DNA of 64,000 nt from Aldrovandia affinis (Eukaryota > Chordata > Actinopteri > Notacanthiformes > Halosauridae), in NCBI GenBank assembly GCA_029706075.1, contig JAINUG010000306.1, positions 317,501 through 381,500 on the forward strand. Reading direction: 5' to 3'. The notes under the pieces are model-generated. The model had not been told where the DNA came from and did no database searches. It saw only the letters and a program-made list of their open reading frames with translations. The position numbers were made by a program, and so were the translations under genes. Positions within the stretch are counted from its first letter, which is position 1. Each line of letters begins with the position of its first letter. Below, in pieces: positions 8,596-47,806 of this stretch.

Positions 8596-9118
8596 GGTCA
8601 GAGAGAGAGGGAGCTGGCATGTGTCTGGCAGAGAGGGAGAGAAATTGAACTGGCATGTGTGTGGAAGAGAGGGAGAGAAGGAACTGGCATGTCTGTGAAA
8701 GAAAGGGAGAGAGAGGAAGCTGGCATATGTGTGGCAGAGAAGGAGAGAACGGGAACTGGCATGTGTGTGGAAAAGAGGGAGAGAGAGGGAGTTGGCATGT
8801 GTGTGGAAGAGAGGAAGAGAGAGGGAGCTGGTGTGTGTGTGGGAGAGAGGGAGAGAGAGGGAGCTGGTGTGTGTGTGGAAGAGAGGAAGAGAGAGGGAGC
8901 TGGCATGTGTGTGGAAGAGAGGAAGAGAGAGGGGGCTGGCATGTGTGTGTGGAAGAGAGGAAGAGAGAGGGAGCTGGTGTGTGTGTGGAAGAGGGGGAGA
9001 GAGAGGGAGCTGGTGTGTGTGTGGGAGAGAGGGAGAGAGAGGGAGCTGGCATGTGTGTGGAAGAGAAGGAAAGAGAGGGAGCTGGTGTGTGTGTGGAAGA
9101 GAGGGAGAGAGAGGTCTG
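8596..9118 (+). repeat. 36-bp minisatellite
   Basis: About 14 tandem copies of a unit containing GGGAGCTGGCATGTGTGTGG followed by AAGAGAGG and GA repeats. The spacing between successive GAGCTG words is 36 bp (8825, 8861, 8897), with a few shorter or longer units. As 36 is divisible by 3, several frames stay open on both strands and yield 12-residue repeats such as ELVCVWKRGRER. I see no start context, splice site or homology that would make it a gene. Confidence 0.9.
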
Positions 9119-22312: not shown

Positions 22313-23140
<828 letters not shown>

Positions 23141-27035: not shown

Positions 27036-27114
27036 AGGGCTATAGTTTTAAGGGGACCCCTGTGTGACACAAACTAAATGACACCACCAAAATGTATTTA
27101 TACATGCCCATATA

Positions 27115-27493
27115 CAAGTAACTACCAAAATAAAGGAAACACCAACATAAAGTGCATTGGGCAAAGCATTCTTCCACAAGAAATTCCATCATTTGGTGTT
27201 TTTTTGATGGTGGTAGAAAAGGCTGTCTTAGGCGCTGCTCCAGAATCTCCCATAAGTGTTCAATTGGGTTGAGGTCTGGTGACTGAGATGGCCATGGCAT
27301 ATGGTTTATATTGTTTTCATGCTCATCAAACCATTATGTGATCACTTGTGCCCTGTGGATAGGGGCATTGTCATCCTGGAAGAGACCACTCCCATCAGGA
27401 ATGCTTCACCATAGGATGAAGGTGAATGGCTTTGTATTTATTGCCATTTAACTTGAGTAACATGAGTGGACCTAAACCATGCTAGGAAAATGC
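27115..27493 (-). mobile_element. Tc1-type element copy D (truncated)
   Basis: The end at 27115 (after TATA) reads CAAGTAACTACCAAAATAAA. The body runs on the minus strand and stops matching near 27493, at the GCATTTTCCTGGC motif, so about 80-90 bp and one terminal repeat are missing. It is the only one of the four copies in minus orientation. Confidence 0.8.
27160..27300 (-). pseudogene. Tc1 transposase C-terminal fragment (copy D)
   Basis: The open frame contains [20 protein letters not shown] and [20 protein letters not shown], the block around the catalytic Glu. The segments before it (27301-27480), with FQDDNAP-like sequence, are readable only with frame changes. It is not functional. 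Confidence 0.8.
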
Positions 27494-42000: not shown

Positions 42001-43102
42001 TTCAGATGATGGCATGATAAAAAGCAACATGAATTTAATATCACTTCAGTTATGGAGAGGTCCATGATGAGGTTACTCAGGCAGTTCAAATCTTTGTGAT
42101 GAATCAAATCTTTTTGATCAAATCACCATTTTGAATGAATCACATGAATCTTTAACCGATTCGCCAAAAAATACCATATAGTCATCGGTTACAGCCATTG
42201 ACGCATCAAGGATTTCAGATACAGTGCTCAATTCAACGCCCTTAACCTAAACCCTTTGCTTGCACGGCGTTAGCAGTTGGTACCGTTCCCTGTCAAGTGA
42301 CTCTGCACTCCAGTTTCGCCTGGCCCCTGGTCACGTTATAGACTCTCCGGGTAGATGCTCTACGTGAGGTGGGTGGAACTCCTGCTGCTGTAGAGTTGGT
42401 CATGACAAATGGAGAAACCCACAAAAGCTGAGCGCAACGATCATTTTATTCATCATGAATAAACATGTCACATACTGTAAATCACACCTCCAGAGCATTG
42501 CTGGTTAATGTCCCTCACCCCCACCTCAGCACAATGTACATATGTATAAATAACATATTTTATTGCATTCACAATGTCCTCCTTTCATAACCAGTACAGC
42601 TAGCTCTGTGAGATTAATAAAAAAATATGTCTAAAAATAAGACAGTGACAAAACCCTTGTCACTGTACAGTATTGTAGCATTACATTGTACATTTTAATG
42701 TAGCTCTAGCCTAATTAATGCATTTCACACAATAAAAAAATAACGAAGCTAAATAAAAAAGTTGCCCCATTGTCTGCATGCTTATAACTGTAAGCATGGC
42801 GCATGAATATTCATTTATTAGGATAGCTAGCTGAATTAAAATTCTGTTAAAATTTAAATTCTGAGAATATTTTTCATATTGATAATATAAACTTAAATTC
42901 TGCATAAATTCACTTAAATAATAATATCAACAGTACTAGAGTACATTTATTAGATGAGGAAAAGTCACAAAACCCCAGAGGCCATGATGAGTGAAACATG
43001 AACGAGTCAAAGGAAAATGAACTAGCCAAAGGAATAAGATTATCTTAAAGTAAGATTGCCACTAAGGTTGCAACCTCAATCATGAAAAAATAAAACCATA
43101 CC
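39093..43102. other. Non-coding stretch, no gene recognised
   Basis: About 4 kb without a recognisable exon or named repeat. A short segment at 40600-40660 has clustered TCAATTAA-type words. 42060-42180 has repeated GAATCA/GATTC words that may be a decayed MITE. Confidence 0.5.
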
Positions 43103-43209
43103 GGTAACACTTCCTATGAATACCCTCGTCATAATGCTTTATACGTATATTTATAATGCCTTATGAGCTATGCATAATGTCTTATAATGCTTGACATTGA
43201 CGCTAATAA

Positions 43210-43804
43210 TGTTACGTATTGGATACGCAGGTGAATGCAGGTAGGACCCAAGCGCAGGACGATGACACAGGAAGATATAGGTGAGGGTATTTAATAAATA
43301 AATACACACAAGGACTGGAACAGGGGAACACAGGTAAGGGCAGACGAAGGCAAGCACGTAGGGAAGCTGGCTTGGAGGCAGGGCAGGGAGCTGGCTGGTC
43401 CGAGGGCACGCGGCAGGACAGGCAGGACAGGCAGGACAGGCAGGACAGGCAGGTCAGGCAGGACAGGCAGGACAGGCAGGACAGGCAGGACAAAAAACTA
43501 CTGGATACCAACGGGGAAGGAGCCAGGCAGGGAAAACACACACAACGAACTGACACCGAATGAAGGGGAAAACCGGGGTACATATACTCTGCAGGGCTGA
43601 TGAACTTGATGGGAGGCTGGTGTGCCGGAATAGGCAACAGGTGAACATGAGTGGTAACGAGGGAATGATAACGGGATAATTGAAAATAATAAAACAATAA
43701 GCACAACAATCACAAGGGAGAAAAAGAAAAACCGAGACAGGAACAAGGGAAAAAACTGTCAGGAAACACAAGGGAGGTGGACAGGACGGGACGGAGACGT
43801 AACA
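43210..43804 (-). repeat. 3' LTR of the gypsy-type element
   Basis: The LTR is 595 bp. It carries about 9 copies of a 9-bp unit (GGACAGGCA, 43412-43492), fewer than the other LTR. Apart from that array and two small indels, the two LTRs look nearly identical by eye. Confidence 0.92.
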
Positions 43805-43939
43805 GTACCCCCCAACGGGAGCCTTCCTGGCGACCCACCAGGCCTATCGGGATCCTCCCGATGAAAATCCCGGATGAGGAAGGATCCCAGATGACCCGGG
43901 CGGGTGGGGGGAATGGCTGAGGGCACCGAGGACAAAAGT

Positions 43940-45030
43940 GTCGCTTGAGGGACGGGCCCCAGTGGGCCCGGGGGAGCCGGCGGCAGCAGGGCGCGGTGGG
44001 CCTCGGAGGCCGGCGGCAGCAGGGCGCGGTGGGCCCTCGGGAGGCCGGCGGCAGCAGGGCGCGGTGGGCCCGGGGAGGCCCGCGGCAGCAGGGGGCGTTG
44101 GGCCCTCGGGAGGCCCGCGGCAGCAGGGGGCGTTGGGCCCTCGTGGAGGCCCGCGGCAGCAGGGGGCGTTGGGCCCTCGTGAGGCCCGCGGCAGCAGGGA
44201 CGTAGGGCCCTCGGGAGGCCCGCGGCAGCAGGGGGCGTTGGGCCCTCGAGGCCCGCGGCAGCAGGGGGCGTTGGGCCCTCGAGAGGCCCGCGGCAGCAGG
44301 GGGCGTTGGGCCTCGAGGAGGCCCGCGGCAGCAGGGGGCGTTGGGCCTCGAGGAGGCCCGCGACGCCAGGCAGGAGAGGCCCTCGGGAGGCCCGCGACGC
44401 CAGGCAAGGAGAGGTCCTCGGGAGGCCTGCGACGCCAGGCAAGGAGAGGTCTCGGGGAGGCCTGCGAAGACAGGGCGCGTTGGGCCCTCGGGAGGCCTGC
44501 GAAGACAGGGCGTTGGGCCCTCGGGAGGCCTGCGAAGACAGGGCGCGTTGGGCCCTCGGGAGGCCTGCGAAGACAGGGCGCGTTGCCCTCGGGGAGGCCT
44601 GCGAAGACAGGGCGCGTTGGGCCCTCGGGAGGCCTGCGAAGACAGGGCGCGTTGGGCCCTCGGGAGGCCTGCGAAGACAGGGCGCGTTGGGCCCTCGGGA
44701 GGCCTGCGAAGACAGGGCGCGTTGGGCCCTCGGGGAGGCCTGCGAAGACACGGCGCGTTGGGCCCTCGGGGAGGCTGACGGTGCCAGGCAAGGAGGGGCC
44801 CTTGGAGAGGCCGGTGACAGCAGGGCGCCATGGGCTCCCAAGGAGGGTGGCAGGAGTCAGCGGCGAGGGAGGCCTCAGGCGATGGGCCTCGGCGAGGCCG
44901 GCCACAGCAAGCAGCGATGGACCCTCAGAGGCCGGCATGAGCGAGTGGCGAGCGGTCCCCAGGAGGCCGGCAGGAGCCAGCGAGGAGGGACCCACAGGGA
45001 GGCCTGCGATGCCAAGCAAGGAGAGTTAGG
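43940..45030 (-). repeat. 35-bp tandem array inside the LTR element
   Basis: On the plus strand a unit such as GGCCCTCGGGAGGCCTGCGA + AGACAGGGCGCGTTG (35 bp) recurs about 25-30 times. Sequence variants form blocks. Units with GGCGGCAGCAGGGCGCGGTG lie at about 43970-44085, CGCGGCAGCAGGGGGCGTTG at 44085-44350, CGACGCCAGGCAAGGAGAGG at 44350-44455, and TGCGAAGACAGGGCGCGTTG at 44455-44765. More irregular copies follow to 45030. Because 35 is not a multiple of 3, all frames are visited in turn and long Pro/Arg/Ala/Gly-rich frames open on both strands. These have no sign of being a protein gene. Confidence 0.9.
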
Positions 45031-45150
45031 CAGGGTTTCCGGGGAAGATCGGTGTTTCTTAATAAGGTCCAGATGCTTCCCCAACTGGGATATGTTGGCA
45101 TCGATTTCAGCTAGGATCTTGCCGAAACTGTCATCGACTGCTGGGTCCAT
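45030..45150 (-). pseudogene. Gag-like N-terminal stub
   Basis: The frame starts at ATG 45150, 16 nt inside the LTR border, with MDPAVDDSFGKILAEIDANI then SQLGKHLDLIKKH. It runs into the 35-bp array after about 45 residues. A short MDPA.. start followed by a helical stretch is what fish Ty3/gypsy Gag proteins usually show. The capsid and zinc-knuckle parts and all of Pol are missing. The assignment rests on position and general resemblance, not on a conserved motif. Confidence 0.55.
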
Positions 45151-45166
45151 GATGGTCAGTTCGTTC

Positions 45167-45803
45167 TGTTACGTATTGGATACGCAGGTGAATGCAGGTA
45201 GGACCCAAGCGCAGGACGATGACACAGGAAGATATAGGTGAGGGTATTTAATAAATAAATACACACAAGGACTGGAACAGGGGAACACAGGTAAGGGCAG
45301 ACGAAGGCAAGCACGTAGGGAAGCTGGCTTGGAGGCAGGGCAGGGAGCTGGCTGGTCCGAGGGCACGCGGCAGGACAGGCAGGACAGGCAGGTCAGGCAG
45401 GACAGGCAGGACAGGCAGGACAGGCAGGACAGGCAGGACAGGCAGGACAGGCAGGACAGGCAGGACAGGCAGGACAGGCAGGACGAAAAACTACTGGATA
45501 CCAACGGGGAAGGAGCCAGGCAGGGAAAACACACACACACAACGAACTGACACCGAATGAAGGGGAAAACCGGGGTACATATACTCTGCAGGGCTGATGA
45601 ACTTGATGGGAGGCTGGTGTGCCGGAATAGGCAACAGGTGAACATGATGAGTGGTAACGAGGGAATGATAACGGGATAATTGAAAATAATAAAACAATAA
45701 ACACAACAATCACAAGGGAGAAAAGGAAAACCGAGACAGGAACAAGGGAAAAAACTGTCAGGAAACACAAGGGAGGTGGACAGGACGGGACGGAGACGTA
45801 ACA
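45167..45803 (-). repeat. 5' LTR of the gypsy-type element
   Basis: The LTR is 637 bp, 42 bp longer than its partner. Most of the difference is about 13 instead of 9 copies of the GGACAGGCA unit (45370-45484). On the minus strand it has a TATA-like GAGTATATGTACC and, further on, TTATTAAATACCC as a likely polyadenylation signal. Confidence 0.92.
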
Positions 45804-46211
45804 AATAATTGCTCATAAACATCTATAACTATAGTTATATAGCTTTACGAGAAAGTTGCATAATGTCTTATGACGCAAAGTTTTATAATGCCCTATAGGA
45901 AATACTCACCAGGAAATTGTGAGGAAATTTATGATAAATGCCCTTCAAATTTGAAAGAATATAACTTATAAATGCCTGATGAGCTTAGTACTCAATGTTA
46001 CCATATCATGAACCAAACATGACACTTTACTTCATGTGGTATTATGCACCTTTCTCATAATGCTACATAACTATAGTTATAGATGTTTATGAACAATTAT
46101 TAGCATCAATGTCAAGCATTATAAGACATTGTGACTAGCTCAGAAGGCATTATAAATATGCTCATAAAGCATTATGACAAGGGTATTCATAGGAAGTGCA
46201 ACCACAATACC

Positions 46212-47806
46212 TTCATAATAAGTTTAGCAGGCCTGTGAGTATCAGTGCATTAGAATTAAATACCAGCTATGGTTCTATTTCTGGCAATCCAGAATATTTT
46301 CGACAGAACCGCATAAATCGAGTAAGGATTCACAAAACCAAGCTTTCGAGGAGTATTTGACAGCAAGTGAAAAATGGTCGTTCATCAGCACAATGTGCCA
46401 GCAGCTGCTTCCAGTATATATCCACAGCAGGAAGAAGCAACTAAGGAGCCATGGAAGAGGAAATATACAATGGAAACAGGAAAAAGGCACCAAGGAGAAA
46501 AGGCGCCTTGGACAGAAGCAGAGGAAGAGGAGCTGACTAAGCTGTGGGGGGAGAATGAGTGTTGATTTGATTCACCCCACAGACTTAACATGACAAGCGA
46601 CACAAGCACAATATGGGAAAAGTAATTGACCAGAAGTTTGATACAAACGGTAAGTGATTTTCCATGTCCAGGAGATATTTCCTGAACTTAAAAACCTCTT
46701 GAGCTGGTCAACAAGAAAACAGCAAGCTTGGTCATACTCAAACCTATATCCTGAGATAGCCACATGGAGGCTACAGTTTCCTCATTTCAAAATGTATATT
46801 GCCCTAAACATGGTTCAGCTCTTAATATATAACTCCTCTGGAACAGCCAGCTGGGTTCTTGGTTACGTTTAAAAAATTCCTCTGTGGGAATTAGCAAAAT
46901 TATCTATTATTATTCCAATCAGGAATGACCAATCATAATTGTAGCCCCATGCCATAACCACAATACCCTCTCATAGTTCAGGAGGACACACGCTAGCTAG
47001 TCCATCCTCAGAAGCATGTGCAGCCAACTGCTGCTTCTTTCCACTCTGCTGTCATCCAGCTCAGCTGCACAGACATTGCACCAGAGGACTGCTTATCTTG
47101 CGCAGCTGGTGCAGGCAGATTGCAGATGTTTCTGCAAATCGCAGTCACAACTATAGGCCAAACCCTGCCTCATCCTGCAGTTGTGACTACAATTATTCTC
47201 TTTTCACCAGTTGTGACTACGATCCCTTCCCTTATTGGGTTACACTGTGGCCAATCATGCACCGTCCTGCAGGACTTCTGGGTCGGCCAGAGTCGATATG
47301 TTCTTAGTCAGGGTTCGACCCACGCCACAGAAGACATCACTGTGTAAAGAACGAGTGGCTCAGCTGGATACCCTACCAGGGATCCAGTAACCATGGCAGT
47401 CTGTATACATTTTTAATTCAAGGGGAGGGAAGTATAAAAAACGTTTCACTCTCAAGCTGCTGTGTAATGCATTATTGCAAAACCTTCTTCTGAAAATGTC
47501 AACACAAATAAAACATAACAAAACAATCAGGGGGCTCCCCTCCTTCCCTTTCCCAACTATGTGTGGCAACAACAACAACAACAAAAAAGGAAAAAGGAGG
47601 AAAGAAAGCGATTTCTGTTTCTCTGTCAGTGGACAGACGCTGATCTCCTCAAATCCCTGTGTATCTGATGTTAAATCCCAGTAATGTGGATTAGGACCTG
47701 TTGAAATGCTCAGGCTTTTCCCTGAGCATCTAACCAAATCCCAACCATTTCTCATTGTGTAAAGAGGTGCAGCTGCTGCTTCCACTGACACATACAGACA
47801 CATACA

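Follow-up and report, generated by a model that had tools for sequence, protein, structure and literature searches.

The window analysed here, a stretch of 64,000 nucleotides, contains at 43210-45803 a complete LTR insertion whose sense strand is the minus strand and whose interior measures 1,362 bp (Table 1). The earlier note had described an LTR element with intact LTRs and a 5-bp target-site duplication at this place, without giving its strand, and this description is borne out by the alignment of the two LTRs, with 4 mismatches in 594 aligned sites, and by the AATAA found on both sides. On the sense strand both LTRs start with TGTTACG and end with CGTAACA, and the combination of a direct LTR pair, TG..CA ends and a short target duplication identifies an LTR retrotransposon. 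The insertion has cut a palindromic host element, the flanks of which, when joined (43108-43209 plus 45809-46198), give a 78% alignment to their own reverse complement. The matching sequence in the opposite arm carries no insert and a single AATAA, that is, an empty site, and the two arms can be aligned over 175 columns with no gap across the insertion junction. This gapless alignment, with its single AATAA, fixes the ends of the insertion without the help of any other genome.

Table 1. Coordinates of the LTR insertion, its internal features and the host element that it interrupts.
Feature	Position	Strand	Remarks
Palindromic host element cut by the LTR element	43108..46198	.	about 490 bp when the insert is removed
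Target-site duplication AATAA, left copy	43205..43209	.	single copy in the other arm of the palindrome
3' LTR	43210..43804	-	595 bp; from alignment with the 5' LTR
9-bp minisatellite, 3' LTR	43412..43492	-	9.0 copies
Short polypurine-like tract GTTGGGGGG	43808..43816	-	separated from the 3' LTR by three bases
Core of the 35-bp array	43963..44775	-	blocks A3 B8 C3 D9 in plus order
Diverged edge units of the array, gag side	44771..45030	-	from unit segmentation and comparison
91-aa ORF at the gag position	44875..45150	-	overlaps the array from about codon 40 on
Primer-binding site AACGAACTGAC	45155..45165	-	complement of the self-primer; one base separates it from the 5' LTR
5' LTR	45167..45803	-	637 bp; from alignment with the other LTR; TG..CA ends
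ATTAAA, candidate polyadenylation signal	45247..45252	-	LTR position 552 of 637
9-bp minisatellite, 5' LTR	45369..45484	-	12.9 copies
Predicted RNA start and 11-nt self-primer GTCAGTTCGTT	45541..45551	-	LTR position 253
TATA-like motif in the 5' LTR	45579..45583	-	LTR position 221; TATAT
Target-site duplication AATAA, right copy	45804..45808	.	single copy in the other arm of the palindrome

The host element is AT-rich as well as palindromic, contains motifs such as TCATAATGCTTTAT, and is likely to be a non-autonomous DNA transposon. Elsewhere in the window, an open stretch on the minus strand at 9588-10253 matches the hAT C-terminal dimerisation domain (Pfam E 9.5e-10), and fragments of DDE_3 (Tc1/mariner-like) lie at 22394-22906 on the plus strand (Pfam) and, below the Pfam cut-off, at 27043-27333 on the minus strand. 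Another open stretch on the minus strand, at 597-911, has weak Ig-domain matches below the Pfam cut-offs and presumably resembles an Ig exon of the nephrin/Kirrel type.

Most of the interior of the LTR element is taken up by a tandem array of 35-bp units (43963-45030), which leaves about 290 of the 1,362 bases: room for a gag-like start, but too few for pol. Together with the empty site, this agrees with the earlier view of a non-autonomous LTR insertion with intact ends. The 91-aa ORF has its ATG at 45150 on the minus strand, 16 nt after the 5' LTR, and Pfam gave no match either for it or for one frame over the array (43844-45025). We call it gag-like because of its position and of its MDPA start, which is presumably similar to that of fish Gypsy Gag; likewise, the open frame that precedes the 3' LTR presumably corresponds to the final part of a fish Gypsy polyprotein. 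The earlier note's Gag-like start is thus retained as an ORF at the gag position, with no Pfam match to accompany it, and the purine tract, which had been called intact, is present as GTTGGGGGG but short. A search of 43000-46300 against Rfam produced 0 matches at gathering scores, and the splice-acceptor-like motif CTGTCTTCGCAGG occurs 8 times on the sense strand.

The core of the array (43963-44775) has a period of 35, with 23.5 copies and 89% matches according to Tandem Repeats Finder. Segmentation of 43929-45030, scored against four unit types picked by eye, yields 31 units of 32-39 nt each, which follow one another in plus coordinates as one D-like edge unit, three A, eight B, three C and nine D units, and seven mixed, diverged units. 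Neighbouring units share a mean identity of 0.853, against 0.749 in shuffled order (sd 0.013), and identity declines with the distance between units. With about 30 units in all, and an order that none of 10,000 shuffles equalled in mean neighbour identity, the description of a block-ordered, GC-rich 35-bp array that fills most of the interior is confirmed. Homogeneity varies with the block: six of the nine D units are identical, and the commonest form among the B units accounts for two of eight. GC content reaches 77% over 43963-45025, compared with 44% for the window, and the observed/expected ratio of CpG is 0.81 in 43963-44775, 0.57 in the diverged part and 0.46 in the window minus the element. 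The RNA structure predicted for the D block (44457-44769) has a z of -2.47, with 2 of 100 shuffles as stable, which we attribute to the palindromic core of the unit and to which we give no functional weight. A function of the interior through G-quadruplexes was considered and rejected, the sense strand having 0 motifs (0.065 expected) and the antisense strand 1 (5.3 expected). A separate tandem array, with a 36-bp unit and 14.3 copies, lies at 8601-9114.

An array of this kind might encode a repetitive protein of the element, as would be suggested by three open frames of 360 to 391 aa on its sense strand (bacterial start codons allowed) and by a scarcity of stops, each frame having 0 or 1 where composition-matched shuffles average 2.8. 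However, four of the six frames, over both strands, are free of stops and the other two have one each, an openness of both strands that is to be expected if the short unit itself contains no stops. In addition, the variable length of the units (32-39 nt) shifts the frame from one unit to the next, and the one frame scanned has no Pfam match. On the grounds of the openness of both strands and of the variable unit lengths we reject a coding role for the array, which we regard as extremely improbable.

Besides the TATA-like motif, the LTR contains one ATTAAA, in place of AATAAA, which occurs 0 times on its sense strand. Both LTRs also carry a minisatellite of 9 bp, with the consensus GGCAGGACA, which explains most of the difference in length between them. 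Since a single insertion here has LTRs whose minisatellites are four units apart in length, the repeat must have changed at or after insertion. Outside the minisatellite, 2 of 511 sites distinguish the LTRs, about 0.4%. The two LTRs of an element are identical at insertion, and with substitutions accumulating at a few per site per billion years, this divergence would correspond to a time on the order of a million years, or shorter.

The units of the array are far more diverse than the LTRs. In a comparison of 10 of the 31 units, namely one representative of each main type and six diverged edge units, with gaps set aside, 3 to 8 of about 34 sites separate the main types from one another (9 to 24%), and as many as 13 of 35 (37%) differ where a diverged edge unit is involved. 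With units up to 37% apart and LTRs at 2 of 511, the array most likely predates the insertion and, barring homogenisation of the LTRs by conversion, would most likely have been inside the element already when it jumped. Alternatively, the element could have landed without an array, or with a very short one, which then grew in place. Minisatellites do grow locally, and both the identity of six of the nine D units and the gap of four units already separating the two LTR minisatellites would be in keeping with such growth, yet point mutation since an insertion that has left the LTRs so similar cannot give the observed diversity of unit types, unless the LTRs were converted, and we judge growth in place to be unlikely. 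What the near-identical D block and the unequal LTR minisatellites show, at the level of sequence comparison, is a recent local expansion or contraction, and only the homogenised blocks of the array can be recent. The earlier proposal of local expansion after capture is therefore upheld as regards expansion, which the order of the blocks supports, and has to be divided as regards timing, the diversity of unit types being too large to have arisen since insertion. The array may have been captured or may have grown out of gag or pol sequence, and pol may have been deleted or replaced.

It is also conceivable that this single copy acquired the array once it was in place, through gene conversion or recombination involving another minisatellite, which would make the array a local accident rather than a mobile unit. 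Its foreign composition (77% GC in a window of 44%) and the fact that only one copy of the element is known here would fit such an entry, but no similar array is found elsewhere in the window, the array is flanked by the gag-like start on one side and the 3' purine tract on the other, and neither the LTRs nor the host DNA show a breakpoint. We consider this course of events very unlikely, and favour an array that was already part of the element when it inserted.

The way in which the element would prime its reverse transcription is suggested by the first bases of its interior, which on the minus strand opens with GAACGAACTGACCATCATGG. Eleven nucleotides of the interior (positions 2-12) form the complement of positions 253-263 of the LTR, a segment that begins 32 nt past the start of the TATA-like motif; the RNA is predicted to start at LTR position 253. 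Matches of at least 11 nt anywhere, using the first 25 nt of the interior, were obtained with 9 of 5,000 Markov-simulated LTRs of the same dinucleotide frequencies, and complementarity of 11 nt to the LTR is also present in 13 of 1,720 25-mers tiled over positions 1-43000 of the window. Because these 25-mers match too, the 11-nt match is modest evidence when taken alone, and it is its exact place at both ends, rather than the match itself, that makes the putative self-priming layout convincing. In tRNA-primed Gypsy elements the primer-binding site has a TGG near the LTR and is complementary to the 3' end of a tRNA. The 12 nt that follow the 5' LTR contain no TGG, so that the site does not conform to the tRNA type.

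Folding of the putative RNA from 4 nt before its start to the gag start (45555-45147, minus strand) points in the same direction. The minimum-energy structure has bases 2-15 of this stretch paired with the primer region (14 pairs, with one bulge) and bases 17-19 with the last bases of the LTR. In the register of self-primer and primer-binding site, 10 of the 11 pairs have a predicted probability of at least 0.97, and the remaining one of 0.53. Taken as a whole, the predicted structure of the 5' leader has no unusual stability (z -0.90, with 19 of 100 shuffles as stable). When the primer end was shuffled, 24 of 100 sequences still formed at least 10 pairs with the 5' end, with a maximum of 12 and 0 of 100 reaching 14, a control that is only partly discriminating for the modelled pairing of the leader.

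Self-priming is the mode of the Tf1/sushi elements, whose RNA adopts a 'pretzel' fold, and for Tf1 and sushi-ichi, as predicted here, a self-primer at the 5' end of the RNA faces a primer-binding site after the 5' LTR (PMC10085805). The leader fold predicted here resembles the central duplex of the pretzel and one of its neighbours (PMC10085805). The ends of the LTRs are also compatible: the motifs given for Sushi in PMC3601003 are TGTYANR and CNTNACA, which TGTTACG and CGTAACA fit, although they fit the rGmr1 motifs of the same paper equally well. The Sushi LTR model of that paper has a clear AATAAA (PMC3601003), whereas the LTR described here has ATTAAA only, a difference from a feature of the model and not from a definition of the group. 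Unlike Tf1/sushi elements, the present one has no recognised pol or chromodomain, only a gag-like start and an interior made mostly of tandem repeats; there is no reverse transcriptase in it, and its placement derives from the priming layout and the LTR ends, not from phylogeny. We conclude that it probably belongs to the Tf1/sushi group, so that the label 'Gypsy-type' of the earlier note is kept and narrowed, the self-priming layout pointing to this group.

Taken together, these results make it quite probable, in our judgement, that the locus holds a recent non-autonomous LTR insertion, derived from a self-primed element of the Tf1/sushi type (a chromovirus) in a vertebrate, probably a fish, with the array copied along. 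Such an element would have retained its signals in cis, namely the promoter, the self-primer, the primer-binding site, the short purine tract and the LTR ends, and an autonomous Tf1/sushi relative would supply Gag, reverse transcriptase and integrase in trans. In the folded RNA, the 5' end would pair with the primer-binding site of the same molecule and, once cut, would prime the synthesis of cDNA, and the array, copied inside the RNA, would be inserted along with the rest of the element, as it may have been in other copies. Its blocks of units would then expand or contract locally through slippage or unequal exchange. A more speculative extension, which we hold to be possible but doubtful, is that a sushi-type LTR family has turned into a VNTR composite, with a CpG-rich, ordered array selected for mobility and with jumps that seed minisatellite loci resembling CpG islands. 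If this were true, the family would be an LTR-based counterpart of SVA/LAVA.

No second copy is present within the window (blastn, E 1e-3). Among viral contigs, the gag-like ORF retrieved 11 pattern-matching stretches and the peptide before the 3' LTR 104, with 0 confirmed relatives in either case, and exact DNA patterns found no relative; nor did the exact unit pattern match any of the prokaryote genome contigs, although both collections are ill suited to a vertebrate element and their negatives say little. A literature search directed at fish and minisatellites returned no title naming a vertebrate element of this kind, which is no proof of its absence from print.

The general theme of tandem repeats inside mobile elements is a known one, from plant LTR elements and from hominoid VNTR composites, and the element described here is a variant of it. 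In plants, the LTR elements Ogre and others of the Tat lineage (PMC7004042) and Retand (PMC11963269) have internal tandem repeats, and their arrays are likewise borne by the element and variable in the sequence and length of the unit; they lie near the 3' LTR and in addition to gag-pol, whereas here the array fills most of the interior. These elements also belong to another lineage and to plants, the present one being presumably animal. The central arrays of the hominoid SVA/LAVA composites offer a different parallel, since these elements are also non-autonomous and have a central GC-rich array of 30-50 bp units with ordered unit types (PMC4432496), but they are non-LTR elements mobilised by LINE-1, with no LTR pair and no self-priming of this sort; the LTR pair of the present element excludes it from that group. 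For SVA/LAVA, PMC4432496 describes remodelling at the DNA level with microhomologies, and for Ogre, PMC7004042 proposes illegitimate recombination or abnormal strand transfer during replication as the source of the arrays. Either could apply to the 35-bp array. In the case of LAVA, the array is reported to determine the efficiency of mobilisation (PMC4432496). What is new here is a putative self-priming layout instead of a tRNA-like primer site, and an array that is apparently older than the insertion that carries it.

The element is a clean, naturally occurring case of one parasite living off another, with little left of it beyond cis signals and a repeat array. Taken by itself, this one copy is informative, though a rather ordinary case of a degenerate retrotransposon. 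Should the same array occur in further copies, the element would represent an LTR route for the spread of minisatellites in a vertebrate genome, and an independent parallel to the arrays of SVA/LAVA.
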